A stretch of 15,642 nucleotides of DNA from Gemmatimonadota bacterium (GTDB lineage Bacteria; GCA-2686955): NCBI GenBank assembly GCA_002686955.1, contig NYZA01000001.1, positions 10,600 through 26,241 of the forward strand, in the 5' to 3' direction. Shown here piece by piece: positions 3,643 to 12,854 of the stretch. Every line of letters begins with the position of its first letter. The first letter of the stretch is position 1. A program made the position numbers and the translations under genes. The notes under the pieces were generated by a model. It ran no database searches and was not told where the DNA came from. It saw nothing but the letters and a program-made list of their open reading frames with translations.

Positions 3643-4353
3643 ATGTCCGAGTATCAACCCATGAACCCTGCCCGAGTCGTCGAATCCACGGACCCCGAAC
3701 CCGCCCTGCTCTTCAGCTGCGAGCATGCCGGGAACGCTCTTCCGGCCGGCGTCGATGCGCGCGGGCTCATCGAAAGCCACTGGGCCTTCGATCTCGGCGC
3801 CGCGGAGCTGGTGGCCGATATCGCGCGAAGGTTGGGAGCGCCCGCGGTGCTGGCGCCCTTCTCTCGACTGTGGATCGATCCGAACCGCTCTCCCCGAGAT
3901 CCGGAGCTGATCGTACAGAGCTGCGGCGGCCACCCGATCCCCTTCAACCTGGGGATCGACGCCGCGGAACGTGAGCACCGGCAGCTTCGCTGGCACGGCG
4001 GATTCCACGACAGGCTCGCAGAGGAGATCTCGAAGCACGCTTCGCTTAGGCTCCTGGTCAGTATTCATACATTCACTCCCACGCTCCGGGGCCTCGAGAG
4101 GCCGTACTCCCTCGGTGTGCTCCACGATGGGCCGAGCGATTCCGTCCGCGCCCTTTTTCGGGCGCTTCGCTCGGAAGGGTTCGATCCACGAGACAACGAA
4201 CCCTACTCCGGCTTTGATGGGATGATCTACTCCATCGCCCGCCACGGTGTGGAATCGGGCGTTCCATATGTCGAGCTGGAGGTGCGCAACGACAAGACTC
4301 GATCGACGATGCCGGCCCGACTCGCGCGCGCGCTCCGGTCGGCGCTCGATTGA
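3643..4353 (+). CDS. N-formylglutamate amidohydrolase family protein
   Basis: A 236-residue protein of the N-formylglutamate amidohydrolase (FGase, HutG-type) family, metal-dependent hydrolases that release formate from N-formyl-glutamate at the end of one histidine-degradation route. Visible family motifs are LFSCEHAGNALP (23-34), HWAFDLGA (46-53), SRLWIDPNRSP (74-84), VSIHTFTPTLRG in the middle, and a C-terminal PYVELEVRND. Many standalone family members act on unknown N-acyl substrates; no other hut genes are in the window, so the histidine link is family knowledge only. The ATG at 3643 is used; another in-frame ATG at 3661 is possible, and neither has a strong ribosome site. The stop codon TGA directly abuts the repeat element that starts at 4354. 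Confidence 0.85.
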   Translation: MSEYQPMNPARVVESTDPEPALLFSCEHAGNALPAGVDARGLIESHWAFDLGAAELVADIARRLGAPAVLAPFSRLWIDPNRSPRDPELIVQSCGGHPIPFNLGIDAAEREHRQLRWHGGFHDRLAEEISKHASLRLLVSIHTFTPTLRGLERPYSLGVLHDGPSDSVRALFRALRSEGFDPRDNEPYSGFDGMIYSIARHGVESGVPYVELEVRNDKTRSTMPARLARALRSALD

Positions 4354-4358
4354 CCTAA

Positions 4359-4378
4359 GGGTCCACGCAAGAATGACT
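4359..4378 (+). repeat. Left terminal inverted repeat of the foldback element
   Basis: Sequence gggtccacgcaagaatgact. It matches the reverse complement of 4518-4537 at 19 of 20 positions; the only difference is an A at 4365 where the other end gives G. If the target duplication is TAA, this is the full terminal repeat; if it is CCTAAGG, the repeat starts at 4361. Confidence 0.75.
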
Positions 4379-4517
4379 AGCGAGTTTCGCATCCCATCTG
4401 CACCCCATCTCCGGTCGATCGGCAAGCCCCGAGATCTCAAAACAGCCCGACTATTCCTCTGGTTTCGGAGCTCGCCGATCGACCAGATCTGCGGCACATC
4501 TGGGCGCCAAGATGACA

Positions 4518-4537
4518 AGTCATTCTTGCGCGGACCC
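4518..4537 (-). repeat. Right terminal inverted repeat of the foldback element
   Basis: Partner of 4359-4378, 19 of 20 matching in inverted orientation. It is followed at once by the right copy of the putative target duplication (TAA at 4538-4540 within CCTAAGG at 4536-4542). Confidence 0.75.
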
Positions 4538-4623
4538 TAAGGGCGCGCAAAGGCGTGCCGATAGTCCCTGGAGGGGCTCCGACACTCGTCCCTCCGGCCG
4601 TTCCCATCTTTGAGGATCATCCG

Positions 4624-5901
4624 ATGCGCGTAGCTCAGGAGTATTTGGAGTTCGCCGATATTTGCGAGCTTTCTAGTTTGCTCGGCTTGTCGAGCGCGGG
4701 CGAGATCGAGGGCCTGACCTTGGCGGAGGACATCATCAACTCCAGCGGTGGTGTGCTCTACAAGGGGGGGAGTAGCTTCGGGGTTCGGCAGGAGCGCAAG
4801 CTGCGCAGCCTGATGGAGGAGTACGAACAGGCCTACCCGGTTCGAATCGAGCGCAACGACGCACTCACCGGATATGTAGCCGAACTGGTCCAGCGCGACC
4901 TCGCCAAGGTCGAAGAGGCGGTACGCGGCCGAAAGCCCTTCAGCGAGTCTTTGGAGCAGATCGCTCCGTTGGGGAGGCTTTTCGAGAAGCACCTGAAAGA
5001 GCGACCTGATCTGGCGCTCGGGCTTTTCACCGCGCGCGAGCGAGAGCACGAGATCACCGGCGATCCGCTGCCTCCGCTCTACCATCACACCCTGTTCCGT
5101 TCGGTGATGTTGGTTGCCCTCATGGAGTTCGTCCAGGAACACACAGGGACCGATCTCGATCCTGAGGTGGACTATCACGTGGCGCTGGAGGGGTCGTTTC
5201 TGCTCTACTCCGCCGCGAAAGACGAGCTCAAGACGATTCTCGCGCCGGAGAAGCGCCGCCGTGGAAGGACCTACAAGTGCGCAATGGCGGCTCTGGGACG
5301 TGTCCTGCACACGATGGAGCTCGACTCTCAGGTGGAACCGGTCATGGAGTTCGTCTTGGCGCACTACGGCGGAGACCATACGGTCGCGTCTCTCTCCTCG
5401 GAGACGGCGATGCGGGCCAACTTCATCATCGGCGTAGACGAATTCGCTCAGATGGTTTCGGGGCATCTCGAGGGGAATATGCCGATGAGAGAGGCCTTCG
5501 AGAGGATACTGAAGCTCGGGATTCAGCACCGGCTCTCGAGCATCGTGGTCGAAGCGCTCGCCCGAGGATTCCCTCAGTTGGCGTCGTTCGATTTCTACTC
5601 GGAGCTCGAGCGGATTCTCGGGGATTGCGAATCGCGCTCCGGGCATCCCCACCCGATCCACAGTCTCTTCTCCGCCACTCTGGTGCTGTGCGGGGCACGG
5701 GATTCTCAGTGTGCCCACTACAGCGGGAGCGCGGGTCAGCCAGTCTACATCACACAAGACGTCGATTCAGGTCTGGCCGCCGGAACCTACGGCACCTGCA
5801 AACTGATGACCCTCCAGCTGACCTCTCTCTACGACCGATATTACACCGAGATCAAAGAGGGAGTGACCGTGGACCGGAACGCGGGGCTCAAGACCGGCTG
5901 A
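4624..5901 (+). CDS. Degenerate HD-GYP-like domain protein
   Basis: A 425-residue protein without a family I can name firmly. Residues 30-75 (LTLAEDIINSSGGVLYKGGS...) resemble the N-terminal module found ahead of many HD-GYP domains (a 'di.d..G.vLl.kG' pattern). Residues 150-315 follow the HD-GYP layout: HHTLFRSVMLVALMEFV (154-170) where the first helix sits, EGSFLLYSAAKDEL (189-202) where LLHDIGK is expected, FVLAHYGGDHTVASL (243-257) where HHER...GYP is expected, and FIIGVDEFAQMVSG (267-280) where the 'aDafdAlts' helix is expected. The HD pair and the GYP triad are absent, so cyclic-di-GMP hydrolysis is unlikely; a sensor or scaffold role is inference. The C-terminal 100 residues are unrecognised. 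ATG at 4624 was chosen because GAGG lies 8 bases upstream; an in-frame GTG at 4555 has a poorly spaced site. It overlaps the end of nuoI by 14 bp, convergently. Confidence 0.6.
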   Translation: MRVAQEYLEFADICELSSLLGLSSAGEIEGLTLAEDIINSSGGVLYKGGSSFGVRQERKLRSLMEEYEQAYPVRIERNDALTGYVAELVQRDLAKVEEAVRGRKPFSESLEQIAPLGRLFEKHLKERPDLALGLFTAREREHEITGDPLPPLYHHTLFRSVMLVALMEFVQEHTGTDLDPEVDYHVALEGSFLLYSAAKDELKTILAPEKRRRGRTYKCAMAALGRVLHTMELDSQVEPVMEFVLAHYGGDHTVASLSSETAMRANFIIGVDEFAQMVSGHLEGNMPMREAFERILKLGIQHRLSSIVVEALARGFPQLASFDFYSELERILGDCESRSGHPHPIHSLFSATLVLCGARDSQCAHYSGSAGQPVYITQDVDSGLAAGTYGTCKLMTLQLTSLYDRYYTEIKEGVTVDRNAGLKTG

Positions 5902-9237: not shown

Positions 9238-11031
9238 CTATGCTTCCGCTTTTGCCCGGAATTTCTCGGGGTACTTCTGAACCATCGCGCGAATCGGCAT
9301 CGCCGCCGCATCGCCGAGAGCGCAGACCGTATTGCCCTGAATATTGTCGCAGACGTTTTCTATCGTCTCGAGATCGGCGGGCTTCATCTCACCGGATTGT
9401 ATTCGCTTCAAGATGCGCGTAATCCAGCCGACACCTTCTCTGCAAGGAGTACACTGGCCACACGATTCGTGGAGATAGAACTCTGCGGTCCGCAGCGCGA
9501 AGTCGACAATATCGACCGAGTCGTCGAGCACGATGACCGCGCCCGAGCCCGCCATCGTTCCGGCTTTCATCATCGCGTCGAACTCTATCGCCACCTCGCA
9601 TTCTTCCGCGCGGAGTATCGGCGAGGAGGAGCCGCCGGGAACGACCGCTTGAAGCTCGTGCTCCCCATCGATGCCGAGACAGAGATCTTCTACGACCTCC
9701 CTGACGGTGACGCCACCCTGGGGTACTTCGTAGAGCCCCGGGCGCTGCACATGCCCGGACACGGAGAGCACCCGGTTTCCACCGCTGCGCTCGGTGCCGA
9801 GCGCAGCGAACCACTCGCCCCCTTTGGTCAAAATGAATGGGAGCTGGCTCAGTGTTTCGACGTTGTTGATCACGGTGGGGGCCGACCACAGCCCTTCCAC
9901 GGCTGGGAATGGGGGTTTCAGGCGAGGCCATCCTTTACCGCCCTCGAGACTGTTCAGCAGCCCGGTCTCTTCACCGCAAATATAGGCGCCCGCTCCACGG
10001 TGTACGTAGATATCGAGATCGAGACCGCTTCCGAGGATGTTCTCACCGAGATAGCCCGCCTCTCTCGCCTCGGCCAGCGCCCCTTCCAACTGCTCGATCG
10101 GATAGACGAACTCGCCGCGCACGTAGATGTACGCCTTCTCGATCCCGACCGCGTGGCAGCAGATCGCGATTCCCTCGATCAGTCGGTGGGGCTCCCTCTC
10201 CAAGAACATGCGGTCTTTGAAGGTGCCGGGCTCTCCTTCGTCGGCATTGACCGCGAGATAGACCGGCTTGCCGCTGTTCTCCGGCACGAAACCCCATTTG
10301 ATTCCCGCCGGAAAGCCGGCGCCGCCTAGCCCGCGCAGATTCGCGGTCTTTACTTCCGCGGTCACAGCGCTCGGCTCCAGTGCGAGCGCCTTCCTCAGCC
10401 CTTCGTAACCGCCGACTTCCAGGTATCGCGCAAGCGTGTGTGACTCCGGATGCCCCCAGTGCACCGTCAGATAGCGCTCCCATTCGCGCTTTTCGGTCGG
10501 CTCGTCGACACCGTCGATATAGACACCGCTCGGACGGAGCGCGTGCCCGTCCCCTTCGCCTGGGAGCCCTTCCACGAGCGTCGCGACATCGTCGACTCCG
10601 ACCTTCTCGTGATAAGTGTCGTTCACCTGAATCACGGGGGCCGTTCCGCACGAACCCAAACACTCCACCGAATTGATCGTGAAGAGTCCGTCGGGAGTGG
10701 TCTGCCCGAAATCGATGCCGAGCCTCTCGCGCATCTCACTCACGACGGCCTTCGCGCCTCGAAGCGTGCACGAGAGGTTCGTACAGATATCAAGCCGATA
10801 CTTGCCTGCCGGGTCGACTCGGAACATCGTGTAGAAGGTTACGACCTCGTGCACTCTTGCGACCGGAATTCCGAGATGAGCCGCCAAAGCATCTTCGGCC
10901 TCGGTCGCAATGTGTCCAATCTGGCGTTGGATCAAATGCAGCGCCGGTAAAGTCGCTGCGGTGGGATCGGGGTAACGTGAGACGAGCTCGTCGATCTCGG
11001 CCTTCATTTCGGTGCTGAGAATGTCGCTCAC
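9238..11031 (-). CDS. nuoEF: NADH-quinone oxidoreductase NuoE-NuoF fusion
   Basis: One continuous 597-residue frame that combines the two NADH-side subunits. Residues 1-156 are NuoE: a thioredoxin-like [2Fe-2S] domain with C83/C88 (CTNLSC) and C124/C128 (CLGSC). Residues 187-597 are NuoF: RGLGGAGFPAG (233-243) for FMN, RGAGAYICGEETGLLNSLEG for NADH/FMN, and C524, C527, C530, C570 for [4Fe-4S] cluster N3. The linker at about 157-186 has no ATG and no good internal start. The start is GTG at 11029-11031, overlapping the nuoCD stop as GTGA, with GGGGAG eight bases upstream. The frame stays open about 40 codons further inside nuoCD, but that part has no homology; ATG at residue 9 is an alternative. 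HoxF of NAD-linked hydrogenases has the same domain order, but no hydrogenase genes are here. Confidence 0.95.
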   Translation of the reverse strand: MSDILSTEMKAEIDELVSRYPDPTAATLPALHLIQRQIGHIATEAEDALAAHLGIPVARVHEVVTFYTMFRVDPAGKYRLDICTNLSCTLRGAKAVVSEMRERLGIDFGQTTPDGLFTINSVECLGSCGTAPVIQVNDTYHEKVGVDDVATLVEGLPGEGDGHALRPSGVYIDGVDEPTEKREWERYLTVHWGHPESHTLARYLEVGGYEGLRKALALEPSAVTAEVKTANLRGLGGAGFPAGIKWGFVPENSGKPVYLAVNADEGEPGTFKDRMFLEREPHRLIEGIAICCHAVGIEKAYIYVRGEFVYPIEQLEGALAEAREAGYLGENILGSGLDLDIYVHRGAGAYICGEETGLLNSLEGGKGWPRLKPPFPAVEGLWSAPTVINNVETLSQLPFILTKGGEWFAALGTERSGGNRVLSVSGHVQRPGLYEVPQGGVTVREVVEDLCLGIDGEHELQAVVPGGSSSPILRAEECEVAIEFDAMMKAGTMAGSGAVIVLDDSVDIVDFALRTAEFYLHESCGQCTPCREGVGWITRILKRIQSGEMKPADLETIENVCDNIQGNTVCALGDAAAMPIRAMVQKYPEKFRAKAEA

Positions 11032-12854
11032 CGGTCCAACTCCCCACCGATCATGTTGACGGTACCGAAGGTTGGGATGACGTCCGCGATGGTCAGACCC
11101 TCTATCAGAGAGGAAAGGGCGCTCATAGGCGCGAAGCAGGGGGCGCGGCAATGCGCGCGATACGCCGTGTCGGAACCATCGGAGACGAGATAGAAACCGA
11201 GCTCCCCGTTTCCACCTTCGACGTAGCCGTACGCCTCGCTCGTGGGCGGGGCGGTGCCATGACCGGACATCGTCCTCTTGAAATGGTGCATCAGCCCCTC
11301 GATGCTGGTGTAAACCTCCGATTTTGGTGGTCGGTTTACGCTGGGATCTTCCGATTGAATCGGCCCCTCTGGCTGCTTGGCTATTGCCTGCTCGATGATC
11401 CGCATCGATTGGCGTATCTCTTCCATCCGCACGAGGTAGCGGTCGAAATTGTCGCCGTTTTGTCCGACCGGAACTTCGAACTCGTACTTCTCATATCCGC
11501 TGTAGGGAGCCGCCTTGCGCACATCGTACGAAACACCGGTCGAGCGCAGGAAGGGGCCGGTGATTCCGTACGAGATCGCGTCCTTGGGCGAGATCGCGCC
11601 GACACCGACCATGCGGTCCTGGAAGATCCGATTGCCATCGAGGAGCTTCACTACGTCGGCCATCATCTCTCGTGTCTTCGCGAGGGCCCGCGCCAGATGG
11701 AACTCGAAACGATCGGGAAGGTCGGCCGCCACGCCGCCCACTCTGGAGTAGGCCAATGTGACTCGCCCGCCGCAGACCCGCTCGAGCAGCTTGTAGAGCT
11801 CTTCACGGGCTTCGATCAGGTAGAGAAAGGCGGTGAAGGCACCCGTCTCCATTGAATGAGCGGCGACGCAGGTCAGATGATCCGCGATTCGGCTGATCTC
11901 GCTCATGAGCACGCGCAGCGCCGCCGCGCGCTCCGGGACTTCGATTCCGAGCAGTTTCTCGACCGCGAGCGACCAGCCGACATTGTTGATGATCGGCGAG
12001 ACGTAGTTCAGACGGTCGGTGAAGATGATCGACTGCGCGTAGCTTCGGTTCTCGCACATCTTCTCGAAGCCGCGGTGCAGGTAGCCGATATCCACGTCGG
12101 AATCGACGATCCTCTCACCCGCGAGTTCCACCGAAATACGAATCGTGCCGTGCATCGCCGGATGCGAAGGGCCCATATCGAGAAAGAGGTTCCTTGTGCG
12201 CCCCCGGGAGTCGGTGCCGGATGCGACTGGAGAGCGCAGCCCGGCTTCGGCGCCGTGCAACACTTTTCCGTTGCGGCCAGCGGTGCCGTTGAGACGGGGG
12301 CTGAGGGTGCGTTGCATTCCTTTCAGCAAGCGCGCGGCATCTTCGGATGCATCATAATCGACCTCGGGGTAGCCGGCGAGATCGGGGAGGCGCGGCTGCT
12401 CCTTGTCGATCGGGTAGTCCTTGCGGAGGGGGTGTCCCTCGAATTCGGGGTAGAGAAGCAGGCGTCTCAGATCGGGGTGTCCCTCGAATCGGACGCCGAA
12501 CATGTCGTACACCTCGCGTTCGAGCCACTCCGCGCTTTTCCACAGATCGGTCAGTGTTCGGATCTCCGCTTCTCCCGAATCGGAGGCCTGGACCTTGAGT
12601 CGAATCCGGTGTCCGCGCCCGAGTGAATGGAGGTGATAGACGATATCGAAGCGGCTGTCGCGACCGAGCCGGTCCACGGCCGTCACGTCGACGAGCATGT
12701 TCATCTCCAGCTCCGGATCGTCGCGCAGGAATCGGGCCGCGCGGTGGAGATGACCCGGCTCGATGCAAGCCGTCTCGTCGCCGTGTTCGGAACAAGAATC
12801 GAGGAGGGCGCCGCCCAGCTCATCGGTCAGTCTGTCGAGCGCATGCTGGCTCAT
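11028..12854 (-). CDS. nuoCD: NADH-quinone oxidoreductase NuoC-NuoD fusion
   Basis: A 608-residue fused subunit at the quinone end of the peripheral arm. NuoC covers residues 1 to about 165, with the signature EREVYDMFGVRFEGHP (112-127) and LRRLLLYPEFEGHPLRKDYP. A loose linker follows at about 166-222. NuoD covers 222-608, with LDMGPSHPAMHG (225-236), in which H231/H235 mark the quinone-site loop, then GYLHRGFEK (257-265), the TDRLNYVSP stretch and the closing GELDR. NuoD has no metal ligands, as expected for this hydrogenase-derived subunit. ATG at 12852-12854 has GAGG 7-8 bases upstream and sits 19 bp after nuoB. The stop overlaps the GTG of nuoEF. NuoCD fusions are common, for example in E. 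coli. Confidence 0.97.
   Translation of the reverse strand: MSQHALDRLTDELGGALLDSCSEHGDETACIEPGHLHRAARFLRDDPELEMNMLVDVTAVDRLGRDSRFDIVYHLHSLGRGHRIRLKVQASDSGEAEIRTLTDLWKSAEWLEREVYDMFGVRFEGHPDLRRLLLYPEFEGHPLRKDYPIDKEQPRLPDLAGYPEVDYDASEDAARLLKGMQRTLSPRLNGTAGRNGKVLHGAEAGLRSPVASGTDSRGRTRNLFLDMGPSHPAMHGTIRISVELAGERIVDSDVDIGYLHRGFEKMCENRSYAQSIIFTDRLNYVSPIINNVGWSLAVEKLLGIEVPERAAALRVLMSEISRIADHLTCVAAHSMETGAFTAFLYLIEAREELYKLLERVCGGRVTLAYSRVGGVAADLPDRFEFHLARALAKTREMMADVVKLLDGNRIFQDRMVGVGAISPKDAISYGITGPFLRSTGVSYDVRKAAPYSGYEKYEFEVPVGQNGDNFDRYLVRMEEIRQSMRIIEQAIAKQPEGPIQSEDPSVNRPPKSEVYTSIEGLMHHFKRTMSGHGTAPPTSEAYGYVEGGNGELGFYLVSDGSDTAYRAHCRAPCFAPMSALSSLIEGLTIADVIPTFGTVNMIGGELDR

Follow-up and report, generated by a model that had tools for sequence, protein, structure and literature searches.

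RUP of Streptococcus pneumoniae is a non-coding MITE of 107 bp, which is present in about 100 copies and for which IS630-Spn1 is the presumed mover (PMC2229807). The Correia or NEMIS elements of Neisseria fall into two size classes of about 107 and 155 bp, with terminal inverted repeats (TIRs) of about 24 bp and hairpin-forming transcripts (PMC2229807), and the REP and REPIN sequences measure 20-40 bp (PMC3733652) and have been linked to tyrosine transposases (PMC2817692). Here, an element of a comparable kind was analyzed in a Gemmatimonadota bacterium (assembly GCA_002686955.1). The window was a stretch of 15,642 nucleotides (contig NYZA01000001.1, positions 10,600 to 26,241), and coordinates given without a contig or locus name refer to it. 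The element was very probably a MITE whose ends are recognised by a DDE transposase of the ISAzo13 family and which this enzyme mobilises in trans. The MITE family is new, the kind of element is already known, and the parent family is clear.

The sequence reading revealed a 179-bp non-coding fold-back element, whose features are collected in Table 1. The left end GGGTCCACGCAAGAATGACT and the right end AGTCATTCTTGCGCGGACCC were complementary at 19 of 20 positions, as had been stated in the preliminary description of this DNA, and in the repeat search the outer arms were 25 nt long and 92% complementary. The left TIR differed at a single position from the family TIR GGGTCCGCGCAAGAAT. The inner symmetric arm pair noticed earlier was also real, with a perfect 11-bp core (GGTCGATCGGC and GCCGATCGACC). 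Folded as single-stranded DNA, the element reached -49.7 kcal/mol, compared with a shuffle mean of -25.25 (z -7.84), and none of 200 shuffles was as low, so the fold-back was well beyond chance. No transposase gene was present within the 179 bp, and the listed open frames that run through it entered from the flanks and overlapped flanking genes in other frames, which bore out the lack of coding capacity. The sequence CCTAAGG was seen at both ends (4354-4360 and 4536-4542), composed of host CC, TAA and GG of the TIR at the left and of CC of the TIR, TAA and host GG at the right. The direct repeat reported earlier was thus present, but only its central 3 bp (TAA) were duplicated target, a register at which 25 of 48 copies were exact. 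Accordingly, the element proper began five bases past the stop codon of the upstream gene and not at the base after TGA as had been supposed. Elsewhere in the window, long open frames on the minus strand (9238-12854) suggested by eye the presence of fused NuoE-NuoF and NuoC-NuoD subunits of NADH dehydrogenase.

Table 1. Features of the element and its surroundings in the window, and insertions of Transposase_29 (PF21804) in MITE copies at other loci
Feature	Position	Strand	Basis or remark
Upstream gene, N-formylglutamate amidohydrolase family (PF05013), stop TGA 4351-4353	3643..4353	+	Context, outside the element
3-bp target duplication TAA, left copy	4356..4358		Sequence; register set by 48 copies
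MITE proper, 179 bp, without transposase gene	4359..4537	+	At least 40 scored host-genome copies; 49 paired in 1.14 Mb
Left TIR GGGTCCACGCAAGAATGACT	4359..4378	+	Sequence, repeat search; 1 mismatch to the family TIR
Inner arm, left, 11-bp core GGTCGATCGGC at 4413-4423	4413..4432	+	Fold; pairs conserved and co-varying in 33 copies
Inner arm, right, 11-bp core GCCGATCGACC at 4474-4484	4465..4484	+	Fold; pairs conserved and co-varying in 33 copies
Right TIR, minus-strand reading GGGTCCGCGCAAGAATGACT	4518..4537	-	Sequence, repeat search, paired copies
3-bp target duplication TAA, right copy	4538..4540		Sequence; register set by 48 copies
Downstream open frame, no Pfam match; GTG start at 4555 also possible	4624..5901	+	Context, outside the element
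PF21804 insertions in MITEs	L134 (G000 C108:63504-65944), L098 (C3:3780), L182:1228 (C22), L130 (C99:1844), L132 (C102:14135), L140 (C131:1670)		

A search of the host genome for further copies had been proposed, and about 100 were found. The host assembly comprised 4.28 Mb in 270 contigs and was 84.5% complete. At least 40 MITE copies were scored from 175 first-look candidates, and the 16-bp TIR end matched at 220 places (115 + 105) with no more than 3 mismatches, compared with 22 (12 + 10) for the reversed control, which suggests a copy number of about 100 in the 4.28-Mb genome. Copy statistics were based on 49 paired copies in 1.14 Mb of host sequence, mostly stretches chosen around known MITE copies. 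Thirty of the pairs measured 176-180 bp, another class 86-99 bp, one copy 151 bp, and two copies of 40 bp were barely more than two TIRs. Contigs often terminated within a copy, as is expected of repeats. Identity of long-class copies to the nearest copy ranged from 87 to 97% (median 92%), values that give no date for the last activity because younger copies, being identical, can be lost from view in a short-read assembly. At three places (G000 C17:57830-57864, C131:10747-10781 and C244:22402-22436, in L102, L140 and L168), MITE ends stood back to back with one common TNA, as CCC-TTA-GGG or CCC-TCA-GGG; since the duplication beside a copy makes a good target in its own right, copies insert next to copies. 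The flank of one 40-bp copy (L155:7026-7106, contig C176) matched a repeat shared by the two genera of the host family (G001 L093, L089).

At the expected register, the 3-mers flanking the two ends were identical in 25 of 48 copies; the other offsets from -4 to +4 gave agreement in 0-3 copies. The exact duplications included TAA (11), TTA (5) and TCA (3), and TAA flanked the window copy. The symmetrised target of the 48 copies (C 65%, T 88%, A/T 92%, A 88%, G 65%) gave the consensus C-TWA-G, within sequence of 63% G+C. Insertion was directly evidenced for another copy, C55:3190, which splits a dispersed repeat at TTA and for which paralogous empty sites exist. For the copy in the window, no vacant orthologous site was located in relatives. 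Seven further copies of the repeat crossed the site without an insert, two of which (L174 and L122) kept the identical TTA, and the others differed slightly there. The empty site read CACGC-TTA-TATCGAAACG in L174 and the filled site CACGC-TTA-[MITE]-TTA-TGTCGAAACG at C55:3190. The multicopy state, the exact 3-bp TNA-type duplications and the empty sites of this other copy supported the preliminary reading of the element as a MITE. The repeat family around C55:3110-3190 (L109), with the core GGTCCTCCCGAGGATCTCACGCTTATGTCGAAACG, had copies in L144, L140, L174, L170, L132, L103 and L122 and a partial match in G001 (L079).

Gene context was taken from a simple codon-score caller (87% coding), which is not a standard annotation. 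With this caller, 40 of 42 classifiable copies were located between predicted genes and 2 inside them. A copy lay within 30 bp of 23 of the 41 neighbouring gene 3' ends and of 16 of the 39 gene 5' ends, where predicted genes were allowed to overlap the element edge by up to 70 bp. Six copies had a predicted gene ending exactly at the TIR, its stop codon coinciding with the left or right duplication. The neighbours were unrelated genes, arranged in tandem, convergently or divergently. Where a TNA duplication falls on a TAA or TGA stop, the stop is regenerated, so insertions there would be harmless, and the placement by stop codons more likely reflects survival and target choice than function. 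The target, a palindrome rich in A and T within a genome rich in G and C, overlaps stop codons (TAA/TGA or the complements of these), and surviving insertions would accordingly be intergenic and often at or just past a stop.

Transposases between similar ends, the search for which had also been proposed earlier, were found with PF07592 elements in another, unrelated genome, G150, and not in the host. Two open PF07592 genes were detected in G150 by the profile search (E 7e-118 and 9e-114). The complete ISAzo13 element of 2,031 bp (L234:441-2471) was flanked by CTA at either end and had the terminal sequences GGGCTCACGCAAAAATAACTTGTCA and GGGTTGACGCAAAAACAAGTTCACA. In the second element (L235), the end GGGTCCGCGCAGAAATAACTTCACATTCTTGC was situated 23 bp past the stop, beside TAA/TTA, and the left end was not found. 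Compared with the MITE end (GGGTCCGCGCAAGAATAACTTGTCA), the best ungapped agreement of the G150 ISAzo13 ends was 26 of 32 (right end on C130), with 21 of 25 at the left end on C193 by inspection; by eye, the MITEs of G150 agreed with the identified end of the L235 element at as many as 30 of their first 32 bases. ISAzo13 elements on Streptomyces plasmids carried ends such as GGGCTTGCAGATCATCAACATGTC and GGGCTCGCAGAGAATCAACATGTC, and exact TTA or TAA duplications were seen at three of these copies, so that the duplication length of 3 bp was common to the MITE and the ISAzo13 elements of both Streptomyces (TTA/TAA) and G150 (CTA). By this likeness to the G150 and Streptomyces elements, the window element has ISAzo13 ends. 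The family had been called unrecognised in the preliminary description; the MITE family is indeed new, but a parent, ISAzo13 (PF07592), could be assigned. Both ISAzo13 transposases of G150 were encoded in two overlapping frames with an A run near the overlap (L234:1429-1489, L235:1474-1489), as in programmed frameshifting.

The only PF07592 match in the host genome was a remnant that covers 139 of 308 positions and is interrupted by an internal stop; no recognisable ends were found around it, and an intact ISAzo13 gene was not detected in the host assembly. Since only this broken gene was found, the MITE family would now be largely immobile in this host; an intact ISAzo13 copy may be missing, given an assembly that is incomplete and divided among many contigs. 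An intact parental transposase in the host is usual for young MITE families and is not required. On inspection, the interior of the MITE beyond about 32 bp matched neither of the two ISAzo13 elements of G150, so that no direct ancestor could be named. From the common ends and duplications we infer movement of these copies by an ISAzo13 transposase, and we likewise infer the chemistry of the cut. A full-length ISAzo13 element would supply the transposase in trans, the enzyme would bind the ends of roughly 25 bp and move the MITE, and joining across a 3-nt stagger at C-TWA-G targets would leave the TNA duplication.

The distribution of the family was surveyed with a 22-bp end scan over 386 genomes, in which two more genomes (G149 and G150) were positive. 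Related MITEs in the two showed 72-75% identity over 167-185 bp: those of G149, 178-179 bp in size, were 73-75% identical to host copies, up to full length and with E down to 2e-25, and one copy of G150 was 72% identical to a host copy along 185 bp (E 6e-19). These genomes belong to two families other than that of the host, within the same domain, and likely to a different phylum. In the Lentisphaerae MAG RIFOXYA12_64_32, the 25-bp end gave 21 matches versus 0 in the control, and fold-back elements of 160 and 265 bp were found, with interiors unrelated to the host MITE and flanks mostly TNA. Many of these copies stood at contig ends and several within contigs; one misbinned contig therefore cannot explain the matches, and misbinning of several contigs is possible. 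The whole-element search of 60 genomes gave no match apart from the host, and the plasmid, phage and viral collections gave none to the element or its end. The same-family genome G001 had 44 loose TIR-end matches versus 23 in the control, none with fewer than 2 mismatches and no clear copies. The MITE family is unexpectedly widespread, the genomes that carry it belonging to unrelated lineages.

When 33 long copies were aligned, 93.1% of the cells in the consensus fold were paired. Both sides had changed with pairing kept in 24 of the 43 arm pairs, compared with 10.2 +/- 1.8 pairs in shuffles, and 72 compensatory cells were counted, compared with 11-16 when partners were slid by 1-3 columns. 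The excess of covariation was strong, and its size is uncertain because the shuffle control ignores relatedness and the structure was taken from the same 33-copy alignment. The covariation fits arm-to-arm repair of hairpins, selection for matched transposase sites, or selection on the hairpin itself. Considering also the alignable interiors in unrelated genomes and the unrelated fold-back interior in the Lentisphaerae MAG, it is conceivable, though rather doubtful, that full-length folding is a feature selected by ISAzo13-type mobilisation or by the host, with the arms kept complementary by arm-to-arm conversion or hairpin selection. The co-varying arms are a testable side question.

The strong fold, the compensatory changes that keep the arms paired across copies, and the copies within 30 bp of more than half of the neighbouring gene 3' ends (23/41) could also be expected of a conserved bidirectional terminator or structured RNA belonging to the amidohydrolase transcription unit. 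This explanation is very unlikely, as about 100 copies adjoin genes that are unrelated and variously arranged (tandem, convergent or divergent); no Rfam covariance-model match was obtained in the window, and no terminator-like hairpin with a T-run in 4200-4700. As an origin of the element, and in the form of the single-copy conserved terminator that the preliminary description had set as the alternative, it was refuted by the multicopy state, the exact 3-bp TNA duplications and the empty sites of another copy. In favour of a MITE of an IS5-family element stand the 3-bp TNA-type duplications, which are known for part of the IS5 family, and the ends beginning with GGG. The tentative hint at IS5 given earlier was not sustained, and descent from an IS5-family element is highly improbable: PF13359 had no match in the host genome, both PF01609 genes lacked these ends on inspection, and the same long TIR is carried by ISAzo13 elements. 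The PF13359 and PF01609 transposases were thus rejected as parents, and no IS5 element with the 25-bp TIR was met in the searches, which covered PF13359 and PF01609.

A Transposase_29 (PF21804) insertion sequence joined to several copies could likewise be taken for the owner of the MITE, for an open PF21804 gene adjoins MITE TIRs at C108, C99 and elsewhere. The probability of this is negligible, since the insertion sequence is bounded by ends of its own (CAGACCTCCTGATC) with a separate 5-bp duplication, AACTT, lies inside the MITE at C108 with MITE sequence on both sides, and occurs elsewhere as PF21804 elements with AAGTT duplications and no MITE around; its own ends and the 5-bp duplication inside the MITE exclude it as the autonomous partner. 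The insertion sequence was found at the same MITE TIR position at 7 of 7 ends, at six loci. AACTT/AAGTT occurred 695 times in the 1.14 Mb, which were mostly stretches chosen for MITEs, so an estimate of preference from this number is biased. PF21804 relatives found in G211 and G150 use AAGTT at places outside MITEs, and the enzyme therefore probably targets a short motif, with MITEs as a favoured or safe landing place. No PF21804 match was obtained in plasmids, and the fixed position in MITEs is a further testable side question.

With this element as a MITE bearing ISAzo13 ends, the little-studied ISAzo13 family would gain an abundant partner that is non-autonomous and has a defined end sequence, a 3-bp duplication and the target CTWAG. 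In the library searched, PMC9208149 was the only paper to contain both ISAzo13 and MITE terms, and no link between the two was seen in it. The ISAzo13 elements (PF07592) of Streptomyces plasmids and G150 resemble the MITE in the long TIR from GGG, the pattern CGC..A..AAC.TGTC and the 3-bp TNA-type duplication, and differ in having a transposase gene and a size of about 1.7-2.0 kb, whereas the MITE has no gene and its interior is not theirs beyond ~32 bp. RUP is similar in its about 100 non-coding copies and in TIRs matching those of an insertion sequence; however, it uses TA targets and IS630-type ends, compared with CTWAG, ISAzo13-type ends and an almost full-length fold-back here. Correia or NEMIS elements share the size classes, the TIR length and hairpin formation, but have TA targets, other ends and no ISAzo13 link. 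REP and REPIN sequences are also dispersed intergenic palindromes of high copy number, for which, to our knowledge, target duplications are not typical; they measure 20-40 bp, whereas most copies of the present MITE are longer and carry 3-bp duplications.
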